Of a DNA stretch of 64,000 nt, positions 716 to 37,778 are shown one piece after another. The stretch covers positions 1 through 64,000 of the forward strand of contig JANWYH010000002.1 of the NCBI GenBank assembly GCA_025054715.1, given 5' to 3'. The stretch comes from Pyrinomonadaceae bacterium. GTDB taxonomy: Bacteria; Acidobacteriota; Blastocatellia; Pyrinomonadales; Pyrinomonadaceae. How positions within the stretch are numbered: the stretch's first letter is position 1; the number at the start of each line of letters is the position of its first letter. The translations under genes were made by a program, and so were the position numbers. The notes under the pieces were generated by a model. That model saw only the letters and a program-made list of their open reading frames with translations, made no database searches and was not told where the DNA came from.

Positions 716-3700
716 ATGAGGAAATTCGTCTTTAGTTTGTTGTCAGTTTTTTGCTTTTCGCTCTTTTCATTTGCTCAGTCGGGCACGGGTAACCTAACGG
801 TTAACGTTTCAGACCCTAGCGGTGTTATCCCGGGCGCGACTGTAGTAGTGGTAGATAACAAAACCGGCAGAGAAAGAACCTTCGTCACGGGAAGCGATGG
901 TTCAATAGCTATACCCAACTTAGAAGTTGGAGAATACACTGTCAGAGTATCTGCTGAAAATCGCAAAACAAGTGTTTACAACGATGTCAAAATAGAAACT
1001 GGTAGAACCTACGTCTTGAGTGCTATTCTTCAACCCGGTGACGTTAAAGAAACTGTAGAAGTAACTGCTGGAACTGAATTGATAAACAGCGCTACAGGGG
1101 AAATCTCCAGAACAATAACCCAAAGAGAAATCGTAGAGCTCCCCTTAAACGGAAGAAACCCGCTTGCGCTGATAACTTTGCAAGCAGGAACTTCATCAAA
1201 TGGTGCAACTAACACAGTTATAAACGGTCAGCGCACATCGTTTACAAACATAATGCGTGATGGACTTAACATTCAAGATAACTTCATCCGTGCTAATGCT
1301 ACAGATTTCGTTCCTGATCGACCAAACGTTGATGACGTAGAAGAATTTACGATCATCAACCAAAATGCTGGTGTCGAATACGGTTACGGAGCTTCTCAAA
1401 TCCAATTTGTTACCCCACGTGGAGGCAATAGATTAAGAGGTGCTTTGTTTATTTACAACCGCAACTCTGAATTTGCTGCAAACTCTTTCTTTAACAATCT
1501 AAATCGCATAGCTAGACCTTTCTTGAACAGAAACCAGTTTGGTTTTCGTGTCGGCGGTCCAATAATTCGTAACCGACTGTTTTTCTTCGGAAGCTATGAA
1601 GGTTTCCGTCTGCGTCAATCAACTACCATAACAAGAACCACTCTATTGCCGAGTGCAAGAGCTGGTATCTTTACTTACATTGACAATAGCGGTGTAACAA
1701 GAACCATTGACGTTCTAACAACAGCTGGAGTTACGGCAGACCCAGTCATAGCAAGTAGAATTTTATCCAAGCTACCTCAAGCTAATAACTTCATTTCTGG
1801 TGGAGATTTCAGAAATACGGCAGGATATACCTTTAGTCAAAAGCAAGACCAAGACAGAGATGCTGTAACGACTCGTTTTGACTTTGACCTCAACACTCAA
1901 CATACCTTTTCGACTATTTACATGTATAGAAAAGAATTTCTGCTCCGCCCAGATGTTGACAATGGGGGATTCAATACCGTCCCGTTTGGCTTTCAAGGAG
2001 CAAGAACCTACACTACTAACTCAGCTTGGCGATGGACACCGAGCGGAAACTGGCTTAACGAGTTTCGCGTTGCTTTACAGCTGAGCAGACCCTTCTTTGA
2101 TAGAAATGATCAACCTACAAACTACTTCCTTTCACTCCCTGTGATTTCAAGTCCAGAATCAACTTTCCAAAAGCAAGGACGAAACACTGCTATTTGGCTT
2201 GTTAGAGACGATGTTACATGGACCAGGGGGAGACACACCATTCGCTTTGGTGGACATGCTTACTGGTTCCGTATCAATCCATATGGACCTCCGGCTTTCG
2301 CTAGATCAACAATTCCAACGATTACAATAGGAACTAACGTAAATACTCCACAGCTTTCTGCTGCACAGTTTCCAGGCGGAATTTCTTCTGCTCAACTTAG
2401 CGCAGCTAATGGACTTCTTGCTCTTCTCGGAGGTTTTGTAAGCAGCGTAAGCCAAACCTTCAATGTAACAAGCAAGACCAGTGGCTACCAACCAAATGTG
2501 CTTCCTCAACGTAGATTACATTACGAACACTACTCATTCTATCTTGGTGACCAATGGCGTCTAAGACCTGGACTTACTCTTAACTTTGGCGCTAGATATG
2601 AAGTTTACACTCCTTTAAGCGAGCCTGATGGACTAGCTCTCGAACCTGTTCTTGGTTCACAAGCCAGCATGCTAAACGCTATTCTCGATCCAAATGGTAC
2701 ATATAACTTCGTTGGAACCAATAATGGTGACAACAGATTTTTCAAGACCGACAAAAACAACATTGCTCCAAACATTAGCTTCGCTTGGTCACCAGAGTTC
2801 GGTGGTTTCTTAAAGTATTTATTCCCTGGAGACGGAAACACGGTTATCCGTGGCGGATTCAGCGTCAACTTCGTTAATGACGAATTTGTTCGCTCCGCCG
2901 ATAATGCCCTAGTTAACAACGAAGGTCTTTCGCAAACTGTAACTGTTTCGAATCTAAATCAACGACTTGCTACTTTCTCAAATCCGGTTACTATCCCAGC
3001 TTTCCAAGTTCCTAGAACTTATGCTCAAAACAATGCTTTAGCTGGGAACTTCGGCACTGTTTTTGCTGTCGATCCAGACATACAAGTCCCAAGCCTCTAT
3101 CAATGGAACATTGGCATTCAAAGAACGCTTCCATGGAAAATGGCTCTTGAAGTTAGATATGTAGGAAACCGTAGCAACAACCTCATCAGAGGACTTGACT
3201 TTAACCAAGTAATAATCAAGGAAAACGGTTTCCTTGAAGACTTCCTGAGAGCCCGTTTCAATATGTCCATAACTGGAGGTGCAGCGGGTAATCCAGCGTG
3301 CACTACTAGTGGATGTTTGCCTTTGACCTTCTTCCCAACTTTGCCAAACGGTGGTCTGCTAACAAATGCAACAATCAGGGCGCAAATTTGGGCAGGAACA
3401 CCTGCAGATTTGGCAATTCTTTACATAACCAATCCCAGCATATTCCCAGGAGTTAGCGCCAGATTCCTGAGAAATCCAAACACAGGCGTTGCAGACTTAG
3501 TCGGTAACTTTGCAAAATCAAATTACAATTCTTTGCAAGTAGAACTCCGTCGTAACTTTTCACAAGGAGTTTACTTCCAAGCCAACTACACTTTGCAAAA
3601 GACTTTAACTGATGCTGCTGGCGTCGGGCAAACACGCTTTGATCCTCTCATTGACAACGCTAATCGTCGTTTAGAGTACGCTCGCGCTGATTTCGATACC

Positions 3701-4369
3701 GAACATGTCATTAACTTTAACGGAATCTTCGAACTACCTTTTGGCAAAGGTAAACCCTTCTTTAATCAAGGTGGTATCGTAGATTTGATTCTTGGTGGAT
3801 GGCAGCTTGGCGGAATCATGCGCTTCTCAACAGGCGCACCGATTTCAATAACTGACCCGAGAGGAACGCTAAATAGAGCCGGACGCTCAGGAAGACAAAC
3901 TGCATTCTCTAATCTGAGCAATTCAGAAATTTCTAGACTGATCGGTATCTATAGAACACCTTGCGGCGTCTTCTTCATCAATCCAGCAGTTATCAACATT
4001 AACCAAGCAAACTTGGCATCTGGTAACTGCACTGCTCTTGGAAGCGGACGTGGTGCCGAAGGCTTCGGAACAAGCTTCCCAGGACAGGTCTTCTTCAATG
4101 TTGCCCCGGGTGAAACCGGAAATATGGCTCGTAATGCCTGGAATGGACCTATCTACTACAACTGGGATGCTTCAGTGCTGAAGAACTTCCGTATAAGAGA
4201 AAACATGCGCTTGCAACTGCGTGCAGAAGCTTTCAATGTTCTCAATAGAGCTAACTTCTTCGTTGGAGTCTTCCCAGGAAATGGAAACATTAACAGCACA
4301 ACCTTTGGACGTATAACCACGTCCTATGCACCTAGAATCGTGCAATTCGTCGCTAGATTCGAGTTCTAA
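716..4369 (+). CDS. Oar-like TonB-dependent outer-membrane receptor
   Basis: 1217 aa. A signal peptide (about residues 1-20, ending SLFSFAQ) is followed by a carboxypeptidase-regulatory-like beta-sandwich (about 24-110; phrases DPSGVIPGATVVV and GSIAIPNLEVGEYTVRV), a plug region (about 120-230, with ELPLNGRNPL) and a very large beta barrel ending in the aromatic outer-membrane signature VARFEF. This architecture is characteristic of the large receptors found in many copies in Acidobacteriota; the substrate is often a peptide or glycan but cannot be told here. The start is fixed by AAGGAGG seven bases upstream. It is monocistronic, from a sigma-54 promoter at 632 to a strong terminator at 4397, so its expression is probably activator-controlled rather than constitutive (inference). 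Confidence 0.9.
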   Translation: MRKFVFSLLSVFCFSLFSFAQSGTGNLTVNVSDPSGVIPGATVVVVDNKTGRERTFVTGSDGSIAIPNLEVGEYTVRVSAENRKTSVYNDVKIETGRTYVLSAILQPGDVKETVEVTAGTELINSATGEISRTITQREIVELPLNGRNPLALITLQAGTSSNGATNTVINGQRTSFTNIMRDGLNIQDNFIRANATDFVPDRPNVDDVEEFTIINQNAGVEYGYGASQIQFVTPRGGNRLRGALFIYNRNSEFAANSFFNNLNRIARPFLNRNQFGFRVGGPIIRNRLFFFGSYEGFRLRQSTTITRTTLLPSARAGIFTYIDNSGVTRTIDVLTTAGVTADPVIASRILSKLPQANNFISGGDFRNTAGYTFSQKQDQDRDAVTTRFDFDLNTQHTFSTIYMYRKEFLLRPDVDNGGFNTVPFGFQGARTYTTNSAWRWTPSGNWLNEFRVALQLSRPFFDRNDQPTNYFLSLPVISSPESTFQKQGRNTAIWLVRDDVTWTRGRHTIRFGGHAYWFRINPYGPPAFARSTIPTITIGTNVNTPQLSAAQFPGGISSAQLSAANGLLALLGGFVSSVSQTFNVTSKTSGYQPNVLPQRRLHYEHYSFYLGDQWRLRPGLTLNFGARYEVYTPLSEPDGLALEPVLGSQASMLNAILDPNGTYNFVGTNNGDNRFFKTDKNNIAPNISFAWSPEFGGFLKYLFPGDGNTVIRGGFSVNFVNDEFVRSADNALVNNEGLSQTVTVSNLNQRLATFSNPVTIPAFQVPRTYAQNNALAGNFGTVFAVDPDIQVPSLYQWNIGIQRTLPWKMALEVRYVGNRSNNLIRGLDFNQVIIKENGFLEDFLRARFNMSITGGAAGNPACTTSGCLPLTFFPTLPNGGLLTNATIRAQIWAGTPADLAILYITNPSIFPGVSARFLRNPNTGVADLVGNFAKSNYNSLQVELRRNFSQGVYFQANYTLQKTLTDAAGVGQTRFDPLIDNANRRLEYARADFDTEHVINFNGIFELPFGKGKPFFNQGGIVDLILGGWQLGGIMRFSTGAPISITDPRGTLNRAGRSGRQTAFSNLSNSEISRLIGIYRTPCGVFFINPAVININQANLASGNCTALGSGRGAEGFGTSFPGQVFFNVAPGETGNMARNAWNGPIYYNWDASVLKNFRIRENMRLQLRAEAFNVLNRANFFVGVFPGNGNINSTTFGRITTSYAPRIVQFVARFEF

Positions 4370-35210: not shown

Positions 35211-36566
35211 ATGAATAAGAGCAAGGTCTTAGTAGTTGATGATGAACCTAGAATACAGCAATCGCTACGAGCCATACTAGAAGATGAAGGCTACGAAGTA
35301 GGAGTCGCCTCAAGCGGTGAAGAATGCCTTAAATATGCTGAGCTAAAAAACTATGCTTGCATACTGCTTGACATCTGGCTTCCAGGAATAGACGGTCTTA
35401 GGACTCTTCAGTTATTGCGCGAGCAAGGCAATAACTGCCCTGTTATAATGATTTCTGGACACGGAAATATCGAAATAGCTGTCACAGCCGTAAAACTAGG
35501 CGCATTCGATTTCATAGAAAAACCCTTCTCAATAGAAAAAACTGTTTTGACCGTTCGTAACGCAATCAGAGCCTATCAGCTAGAACTTAAGAACGCTGAG
35601 CTTATACAGAGTCTAGACCAAGAATACGTAATGATAGGCGATTCGGTCGCAATGCGTGCCTTAAGGAAACAAATCAGAATTGTTGCTGAAACAGACGGGC
35701 GCGTGCTAATCACTGGAGAATCAGGAACAGGAAAAGAGTTGGTTGCAAGAGCTATACACAACCAATCAAAAAGAAAAGACGCCTCTTTCGTCGAAATAAA
35801 TTCCGCTGCTATACCCGAAGACCTGATCGAATCAGAACTCTTCGGTTACGTAAAAGGTGCCTTCTCCGGTGCAACCCATTCAAGAAAGGGAAAGCTTGAA
35901 ATTGCAGATGGCGGAACTCTTTTCCTAGACGAAATAGGAGACATGTCGCCAAGAATGCAAGCAAAACTTTTAAGAGTCTTAGAAGAAGGGCGCTTCGAGC
36001 CTCTAGGAAGCAACACACAAATAAAAGTTGATGTCCGAGTTATCTCAGCTACAAACAAGAATCTCGACGAGTTAATTGAATCAGGAAACTTCCGACATGA
36101 TCTCTTTTATCGCCTAAACGTAATTCCATTTGAAATTCCTCCACTTCGTGAAAGAATCGAAGACATACCTCTTCTTGTCGAACATTTTAACAAGAAATTC
36201 TCTGCCTCCTACGGCAAAAAACCAAAGGAATTTACACAGGAAGCAATCCAAATACTGCAAAGCTATGCTTGGCCTGGAAACGTCAGAGAACTAAAAAACA
36301 CTGTAGAAAGAATAGTTATAACCGTTCAAAAGGAAAAAATCACACCCAAAGAGCTACCTCCTCTTTCTATTGAACCAATAAGTTCTAAGCCTGCTCGCTT
36401 TCCCTCCTTGAAAGAAGCCATAGAAGATTTTCAAAGAAAATACATAGAGCAGAAAATAAACGAAGCCGGTGGCAACATCTCTAAAGCCGCAGAACTAATG
36501 GGAATAGATAGAAGTCATCTATATAGAAGAATAAAGTCACTTGGAATTGACATCGAAAAATTCTAG
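35211..36566 (+). CDS. sigma-54-dependent response regulator (NtrC/NtrX family)
   Basis: 451 aa with three domains. The receiver domain (1-120) has Asp10-Asp11, phospho-acceptor Asp54 (LLDIWLPG) and Lys104 (FIEKPF). The AAA+ domain (about 140-375) has Walker A GESGTGKE (169-176), the sigma-54 contact loop GAFSGA (216-221; consensus GAFTGA, Thr to Ser), Walker B GGTLFLDEIGDM and the R-finger region. The C-terminal Fis-type helix-turn-helix has NISKAAELMGIDRSHLYRRIKSLG. NtrX-like overall. The cognate sensor kinase is not adjacent. An inverted repeat and a -24/-12 promoter lie immediately downstream. Confidence 0.93.
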   Translation: MNKSKVLVVDDEPRIQQSLRAILEDEGYEVGVASSGEECLKYAELKNYACILLDIWLPGIDGLRTLQLLREQGNNCPVIMISGHGNIEIAVTAVKLGAFDFIEKPFSIEKTVLTVRNAIRAYQLELKNAELIQSLDQEYVMIGDSVAMRALRKQIRIVAETDGRVLITGESGTGKELVARAIHNQSKRKDASFVEINSAAIPEDLIESELFGYVKGAFSGATHSRKGKLEIADGGTLFLDEIGDMSPRMQAKLLRVLEEGRFEPLGSNTQIKVDVRVISATNKNLDELIESGNFRHDLFYRLNVIPFEIPPLRERIEDIPLLVEHFNKKFSASYGKKPKEFTQEAIQILQSYAWPGNVRELKNTVERIVITVQKEKITPKELPPLSIEPISSKPARFPSLKEAIEDFQRKYIEQKINEAGGNISKAAELMGIDRSHLYRRIKSLGIDIEKF

Positions 36567-36580
36567 GCTATCAAATTTTG

Positions 36581-36611
36581 TCAAATTGAATTATCTTTTA
36601 TTTCAATTTGA
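36581..36611 (+). promoter_or_regulatory. enhancer-like inverted repeat
   Basis: TCAAATTGAA (36581-36590), 11 bp, TTCAATTTGA (36602-36611): a perfect 10-bp inverted repeat centred about 118 bp before the predicted sigma-54 start at 36714, the usual distance for an NtrC-type enhancer site. The same decamer is repeated at 26951-26978. Confidence 0.5.
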
Positions 36612-36640
36612 AAAACGTTTAATTGTGTTTAGATTGGTTT

Positions 36641-36654
36641 AAGTTTATAAACTT
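36641..36654 (+). promoter_or_regulatory. 14-bp perfect palindrome
   Basis: AAGTTTATAAACTT, centred ~66 bp before the predicted start at 36714. It could be a second activator site or a bending-protein site. Confidence 0.4.
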
Positions 36655-36686
36655 TGTTTATACAACATTTACAAAAAGAAAAGATT

Positions 36687-36703
36687 TTGGCATAGTTTTT
36701 GCT
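36687..36703 (+). promoter_or_regulatory. sigma-54 (-24/-12) promoter
   Basis: TTGGCATAGTTTTTGCT, GG at 36689-36690 and GC at 36701-36702, correct 12-base offset. Predicted start about 36714, reading into a region with no gene on the plus strand. It is 15/17 identical to the TonB receptor promoter at 632-648. Confidence 0.7.
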
Positions 36704-36713
36704 TTCTTGGGAG

Positions 36714-36900
36714 AAAGGGAGAAGAATTTTCGAAGGGCGGACACTTTGAAGAACTGAGACACCTTAAAACCTCATTTCCTCCGATATTTGGAAAGTTTAA
36801 AAAAACGACTGTCAACCGTTCGAACTCGGTTTGCGCTAACCCTATCTGGTTTCTCCTCCTTTCCCTCATCCCCCTAAACGAGCGGTTGGCAGTCTTCTCA
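36714..36900 (+). ncRNA. candidate sigma-54-dependent structured RNA
   Basis: The predicted transcript has no convincing frame. Its main feature is a 16-bp stem, 36807-36822 with 36879-36894, enclosing 56 nt. Fourteen pairs are Watson-Crick and two are G.U on the plus strand; the same positions are A.C mismatches on the minus strand. A second hairpin, TTCTCAA/TTGAGGA (36894-36917), again has a pair that is U.G only on the plus strand. The loop is C-rich and contains CTCCTCCTTTCC, complementary to Shine-Dalgarno sequences, as in many trans-acting sRNAs. The 3' end is not defined, as no strong T-run follows. Alternatively the stem, with the A-run at 36799-36805, is the sdhCAB terminator on the minus strand. 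Confidence 0.45.
36799..36894 (-). terminator. possible terminator of the sdhCAB operon
   Basis: On the minus strand the 36879-36894/36807-36822 stem is followed by G and seven T (36805-36799), about 90 nt past the sdhB stop. The stem has two A.C mismatches on this strand and a 56-nt loop, so it would be an unusual terminator. Confidence 0.45.
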
Positions 36901-36983
36901 ATACGTGAACCTTGAGGAGAGATGGATTTCGATTTTTCTTTAGGACTGAAAGTTCTAAAGATCCTTTCAGAAAGCTTTAGAGT

Positions 36984-37778
36984 CTATTTCTTCAACCAGC
37001 CAAAAATTGCATTCATAGTTATTTCGCGATTGGTTTCATAGATGGCTTTTGTCAATGGGATATTCATCGGACAAACTTTGATGCAATTCTGAGCATTCCC
37101 GCAGTTGGTTATTCCGTCTTCACCCATTAAAGCCTCTAGTCTTTCATTTTTTGTCATTTTTCCTATTGGATGCATATTGAACAACCTAACCTGAGCTATT
37201 GCTTGAGGACCTATGTAATTATCGCCGTGATACTGTGGACAAGCTTCAAGACAGCATCCGCAGGTCATACATCTTGAATAGACATACCTTTCTTGAGCTT
37301 CTTTATTTGATATGCGAGGACCTGCGCCTAGATCGTGAGTTCCATCAAGCTCAATCCATGCTTTGACTCTTTTCAGATGCTCAAACATTTTCGTTCGATC
37401 TACTTTGAGATCACGTATGTTTGGAAATTTTGACATTGGTTGCAGAGTGATTATGTTGCTCCCCGAATCTAGAATTAAATCATCAATTAAAGCCGAGCAA
37501 GCTTGCCTTACGCGCCCGTTAATCACCATAGTGCAAATTCCGCAAACTTGCTCAAGACAGCTCATATCCCAAACTGGAGGATTGGTTTTGATACCTTCTT
37601 TAGTTATCGGATTTTTACGAATTTCCATTAAGGCTGAGATCACATTCAAGTTTCTACGATAATTTATTTCAAAGGATTGCCAATAGATAGGCGCATCTGG
37701 GCGGTCACGCCGCTGTATTCTTATTTCAATTTTTTCAGGTGGGTTTTCTAAAACTCTTTTTTTGTGTCCGTTCTTCAC
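36984..37778 (-). CDS. sdhB: succinate dehydrogenase/fumarate reductase iron-sulfur subunit
   Basis: 264 aa. Ligands for all three clusters are present: [2Fe-2S] in CLEQVCGICTMVINGRVRQAC (quoted to the last Cys; region 74-95), [4Fe-4S] in CMTCGCCLEACP and [3Fe-4S]/[4Fe-4S] in CGNAQNCIKVCP. It passes electrons from SdhA to the cytochrome b subunit. It is the last gene of sdhCAB, 15 bp after sdhA. Confidence 0.95.
   Translation of the reverse strand: MKNGHKKRVLENPPEKIEIRIQRRDRPDAPIYWQSFEINYRRNLNVISALMEIRKNPITKEGIKTNPPVWDMSCLEQVCGICTMVINGRVRQACSALIDDLILDSGSNIITLQPMSKFPNIRDLKVDRTKMFEHLKRVKAWIELDGTHDLGAGPRISNKEAQERYVYSRCMTCGCCLEACPQYHGDNYIGPQAIAQVRLFNMHPIGKMTKNERLEALMGEDGITNCGNAQNCIKVCPMNIPLTKAIYETNREITMNAIFGWLKK

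Follow-up and report, generated by a model that had tools for sequence, protein, structure and literature searches.

A predicted sigma-54-dependent small RNA with an anti-Shine-Dalgarno loop, conserved at unrelated genomic positions in two species of a Pyrinomonadaceae genus

The window analysed here, a 64,000-nucleotide stretch of DNA from a Pyrinomonadaceae bacterium, is part of contig C16 of genome G000 (size 2.45 Mb) and contains an intergenic unit between a gene for an NtrX-type response regulator (35211-36566, plus strand) and sdhB (36984-37778, minus strand). The regulator carries a REC domain, an AAA+ sigma-54 domain and a Fis-type HTH (Pfam and NCBIfam). Its best NCBIfam match, NF051870, reaches 480 bits, below the NtrX equivalog cut-off of 600, and we therefore call it NtrX-like. 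GAFSGA replaces GAFTGA in this protein, a change shared with its nearest orthologues, many distant ones having GAFTGA. A strong orthologue (E < 1e-150) is present in 36 of 40 relatives, and the closest named relatives of the regulator are Pyrinomonadaceae and Chloracidobacterium metagenome genomes, which places the genome in the Acidobacteriota as Blastocatellia-like. In two relatives (L070 and L071) the gene upstream of the orthologue encodes a large membrane protein that we take to be NtrY; in G000 the gene stands apart from this usual NtrY-like neighbour, downstream of a MOT1-type transporter. On the other side, sdhB (Pfam and NCBIfam) is a convergent neighbour lying outside the RNA unit described below. 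Just beyond its stop codon there is a hairpin at 36938-36961 with perfect arms (CUUUAGGACU/AGUUCUAAAG), probably marking the 3' end of sdhB or acting as a terminator common to the convergent genes, with no T-run after it on either strand. The candidate RNA region is single-copy in the genome, as judged by a check for repeats and mobile elements. No tRNA or tmRNA was found in the region, and Rfam searches at gathering and permissive thresholds gave only chance-level matches for it, so that no family was assigned.

The unit contains a sigma-54 (-24/-12) promoter, TTGGCATAGTTTTTGCT, at 36687-36703 on the plus strand, with the GG-N10-GC spacing of the element satisfied and a predicted start at about 36713-36714. 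The initial annotation had described it as near-consensus; it is in fact an exact match to the consensus that we used, YTGGCAYR-N4-TTGCW. Across the genome this pattern gave 7 exact and 63 one-mismatch matches, 70 altogether against 24 for the reversed-pattern control; a pattern with spacing off by one, which serves as a wrong-spacing comparison only, gave 7. None of the seven exact sites lies within a coding region, one merely touching the start of an over-extended ORF, while nearly all the one-mismatch sites inspected fall within ORFs. Five of the other six exact sites precede a gene start and one is cut by a contig end, leaving 36687-36703 as the only readable exact site of the seven in the genome with no ORF behind it. 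The genome encodes rpoN. In agreement with the earlier statement that no plus-strand gene follows the promoter, no plus-strand ORF of at least 50 aa starts within 350 bp of it.

Upstream of the promoter, at 36581-36611, there is a perfect 10-bp inverted repeat (TCAAATTGAA-N11-TTCAATTTGA), present as originally annotated. We read it as a predicted upstream activator site (enhancer), TCAAATTGA-N13-TCAATTTGA, made of a pair of TCAWWWTGA dyads spaced by about 22 bp; it is centred ~118 bp before the predicted start, within the usual enhancer range of ~80-150 bp. A family search with a strict two-dyad pattern found it in 7 of 119 family genomes, the reversed control giving 0. Beyond the genus there are seven such sites, and at six of them a sigma-54 box follows at a distance of 63-99 bp, a linkage with a chance probability of ~2e-8 calculated from the measured background. 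The genes behind this family-wide dyad (TCAAAWTGA-N10-15-TCAWTTTGA) and box encode secreted S8 peptidases at L224, L227, L229 and L231 (~position 1501), one of them Pfam-confirmed, and an HD-GYP-type protein at L226 and probably, as its paralogue, at L230, these two from inspected translations. In G000 itself, single dyad-type sites also precede three further exact sigma-54 boxes (L150, L155 and L156). Because the dyad is linked to sigma-54 boxes across the family, the inverted repeat is very probably a genuine activator site, and dyad plus box before S8 peptidase and HD-GYP genes delineate a candidate, undescribed sigma-54 regulon. The initial annotation had also singled out AAGTTTATAAACTT at 36641-36654; it is indeed a perfect 14-bp palindrome, but it is not kept in the related genome described below and is therefore probably due to chance.

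Downstream of the promoter we predict a small RNA at 36714-36940 on the plus strand, whose start and end we infer, from the promoter position, the structure, its conservation and the lack of coding sequence. It would contain a 14-nt element, AAGAACTGAGACAC, at 36749-36762, and a main stem-loop at 36807-36894 with a 16-bp stem (36807-36822/36879-36894), two G.U pairs on the plus strand and a 56-nt loop. The length of this stem is by itself non-significant (16 bp against a shuffle maximum of 20), and the fold of the whole transcript is unexceptional (z -1.1). The segment 36803-36898, however, has a folding energy of -31.1 kcal/mol when read as plus strand (z -5.7, 0 of 200 shuffles) and of -26.2 kcal/mol as minus strand (z -1.6, 15 of 200 shuffles); significant stability of the stem claimed at the outset is thus confined to the plus strand. 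Two segments of the loop stand out, A (CTCGGTTTGCGCTAA, 36825-36839) and B (GTTTCTCCTCCTT, 36849-36861). Segment B contains CCTCCTT and is the likely seed; the Shine-Dalgarno (SD)-complementary sequence reported earlier for the loop was found as CUCCUCCUUUCC at 36853-36864. A second hairpin of 8 bp (CUUCUCAA/UUGAGGAG, 36893-36919) shows the same strand asymmetry, also as had been claimed. No canonical terminator for the RNA was found in the window, and its 3' end probably lies in the U-rich stretch that follows this second hairpin.

To compare the unit with related genomes we searched the 119 family genomes at the DNA level with loose thresholds and obtained one coherent match, at ~46270-46690 of contig C21 of G001, the only other member of the genus compared, so that all conservation described here rests on two sequences. 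Eight elements are co-linear in the two genomes: the left and right enhancer arms, the sigma-54 box, AAGAACTGAGACAC, the 5' stem, CTCGGTTTGCGCTAA, TTTCTCCTCCTT and the 3' stem. The 14-nt element and both loop segments are identical, which makes the two invariant segments of the loop natural contact sites. The sigma-54 box of G001, TTGGCATGGCGCATGCT, has one mismatch, and its enhancer counterpart, TCAAAATGA-N12-TCATTTTGA, stands at the matching place and differs from that of the window by symmetrical changes that retain the dyad. A covariance model built from the window alone recovers the G001 copy at 25.7 bits (E 5e-5 in 81 kb). The stem is longer in G001, ~22 bp, and is followed, in the place of the second hairpin of the window, by an intrinsic terminator, GGCGAAGG-TTTCCCGCT-CCTTCGCC-TTTTTT, identified by inspection and folding; a simple scan for terminators passes over it, probably on account of the 9-nt loop. 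A wider covariance search of the family gave no further members, the other matches being on inspection coding sequence or devoid of promoter and motifs; since its strict filters also missed the known G001 copy, these negatives are weak and do not establish absence elsewhere, and the RNA gene appears so far restricted to one genus. Several relatives have sdhA codons (KRSHSVCAQG) that look like 36811-36837; we judged this a coincidence, as sdhA of the window itself reads differently and G001 shares no more than CTCGGTTTGCGCTAA of that stretch.

All 11 stem positions with letters in both sequences pair on the plus strand, as do all 27 comparable cells of the covariance alignment. Between window and G001 the stem carries one two-sided change (C-G to U-A) and three one-sided changes, two of which give G.U pairs in G001 that are unpairable on the minus strand. 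Substitutions preserving pairing on the minus strand only had been named as evidence against the RNA; in these two sequences we see the opposite outcome, with plus-strand pairing kept. With two sequences only, covariation support rests on one two-sided pair and a shuffle control is powerless, and the stem changes are thus consistent with a plus-strand RNA and no proof of it. An RNA might also not be made at all, the sigma-54-like and hairpin sequences having arisen by chance in an AT-rich intergenic region, as the unremarkable fold of the whole transcript would allow; we regard this as scarcely credible, given that another species keeps the co-linear elements at an unrelated genomic position and that the enhancer is tied to sigma-54 boxes family-wide.

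The G001 copy also bears on what kind of RNA this may be. The first ATG past the predicted start, at 36922, opens 39 codons that run antisense into sdhB, and a purine-rich, SD-like GAGGAGAG just before it could mark a short mRNA for a 39-aa protein (36922-37041, MDFDFSLGLKVLKIL...), the second hairpin sequestering its SD. We consider such a message very unlikely, for the ORF overlaps the 3' end of sdhB in antisense orientation and has no counterpart in G001, where the terminator stands instead, and no ORF common to the window and the G001 RNA was found. Likewise, the genes being convergent, read-through from 36714 would overlap the 3' end of sdhB, and the initial annotation had proposed a role antisense to the sdhB 3' untranslated region. 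This idea fails because the gene neighbourhood is not conserved: in G001 the RNA lies on a contig different from that of sdhB, nowhere near sdh, and the conserved loop would not be part of any overlap with sdhB coding sequence, leaving cis-antisense action on the sdhB 3' end barely conceivable.

The G001 RNA is flanked instead by an arginase-family gene and an S8 peptidase gene, with its terminator just upstream of the latter and on the same strand. As enhancer and sigma-54 box precede S8 peptidase genes elsewhere in the family too, the element could be a 5' leader or attenuator, a sigma-54-transcribed leader plus terminator before the peptidase gene, of which the window copy would be an orphan relic. 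We hold this to be improbable, since the window copy keeps promoter, enhancer and loop without a downstream gene, and the G001 peptidase differs in architecture, with its catalytic domain at 155-434 versus from residue 353 in other genera.

Promoter, activator dyad, plus-strand structure and SD-complementary loop are all kept in G001 despite the different neighbourhood. Because the sigma-54 box is exact and rare, the dyad is linked to such boxes in the family, the elements are co-linear in G001 and the stem is significant on the plus strand only, a plus-strand, sigma-54-driven, trans-acting sRNA with an anti-Shine-Dalgarno loop is the best-supported and, in our judgement, the probable reading. 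Its promoter, enhancer, structure, strand, conservation and lack of a conserved ORF are supported by the sequence and by the comparison with G001; its action in trans and the blocking of SD sequences we infer. In such a mechanism, a bEBP would bind the paired TCAWWWTGA dyads at 36581-36611 and activate sigma-54 polymerase at 36687-36703, yielding a free-standing RNA of ~225 nt whose strong stem would present a G-poor loop. The CCTCCTT within GTTTCTCCTCCTT is the core of the 16S anti-Shine-Dalgarno, which makes SD pairing the simplest mechanism: the invariant segment would mimic that sequence, and the RNA would most likely pair with the ribosome-binding sites of trans-encoded mRNAs and block their translation. 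Expected targets would be mRNAs with AAGGAGGAG-like SDs. Scanned with the 13-nt seed complement at up to one mismatch, the two genomes had no target in common. One G001 gene, called pilC-like from inspection, matches the loop segment at 12 of 13 bases immediately ahead of its ATG, with a duplex of -22.3 kcal/mol, a match that may be due to chance because the sequence is SD-like. The loop core was not found in viral contigs.

As for the activator, the adjacent NtrX-like regulator (35211-36566) is the obvious candidate because the enhancer begins only 14 bp beyond its stop codon. The published NtrX DNA site, CAAN2-5TTG, which comes from alphaproteobacteria (PMC9223101), resembles half of the dyad; the enhancer region of the window has CAA-N1-TTG twice and CAA-N3-TTG once just upstream, and the G001 sequence TCAAAATGA does not fit. 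Doubt arises because in G001 the RNA and the ntrX-like gene are on different contigs, and because G024 has a perfect enhancer and sigma-54 box without a close orthologue of the regulator (best 41%; assembly 90% complete). A further reason is a second bEBP gene at L155 (reverse strand, ~106-1501), which is directly followed by a TAGTTCATTTTGAACTA palindrome of the TCATTTTGA type. We therefore name the NtrX-like protein as activator of the RNA only tentatively, as a candidate alongside the L155 bEBP. At L155 an exact sigma-54 box and then a roadblock-like gene come after the bEBP gene and palindrome, which repeats the arrangement of the window.

Regulation of this kind is known from sRNAs of other bacteria. 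The Qrr sRNAs under LuxO and GlmY/GlmZ under GlrR have sigma-54 promoters with bEBP enhancer sites, and crcZ adjoins cbrB. The predicted RNA resembles Qrr and GlmY/GlmZ in having a sigma-54 promoter and a bEBP enhancer site at the sRNA gene, but it has no sequence, structure or Rfam match to them. CrcZ and CrcY of Pseudomonas and Azotobacter are sigma-54-dependent sRNAs under the NtrC-type activator CbrB (PMC6296734). The likeness lies in the pairing of such an sRNA with an NtrC-type regulator, the activator in the window being only a candidate; CrcZ sequesters the translational repressor Crc, whereas the window RNA offers an SD-complementary loop, and the sequences are unrelated. The anti-SD motif in a loop recalls the alpha-r14/NfeR1 and AbcR sRNAs of rhizobia, in which an unpaired anti-SD motif of the CCUCCUCCC type blocks translation initiation, and NfeR1 is linked to the Ntr system, LsrB activating it and NtrC repressing it (PMC10746234). 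NfeR1, however, has three hairpins, each with an unpaired CCUCCUCCC, where the window RNA has one loop with CUCCUCCUU, and it is not driven by sigma-54, unlike the predicted RNA; no homology between them is shown. A narrow search of open-access full text found no paper on a sigma-54-controlled sRNA in Acidobacteria, a negative of little weight.

If the RNA is real, regulation of the CrcZ, Qrr and GlmY kind extends to a distant phylum, and its gene occupies different positions in the genomes of two congeneric species. Independently of the RNA, the activator dyad offers a ready handle on a candidate family-wide sigma-54 regulon of secreted peptidases and HD-GYP proteins. More speculatively, an NtrYX-type system in Acidobacteriota could be a true sigma-54 activator acting via the TCAWWWTGA dyad to control secreted S8 peptidases and HD-GYP proteins in the family, with a genus-gained RNA arm, a broad anti-SD sRNA silencing many messages when the regulator is active; we regard this larger scheme as doubtful. 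Finally, the window contains a second exact sigma-54 box, TTGGCATAGCTCTTGCT at 632-648 on the plus strand, 68 bp before 716-4369, which encodes an Oar-type TonB-dependent receptor with a carboxypeptidase-regulatory domain, and at L151 an exact sigma-54 site is followed by another Oar/TonB-receptor-like protein.
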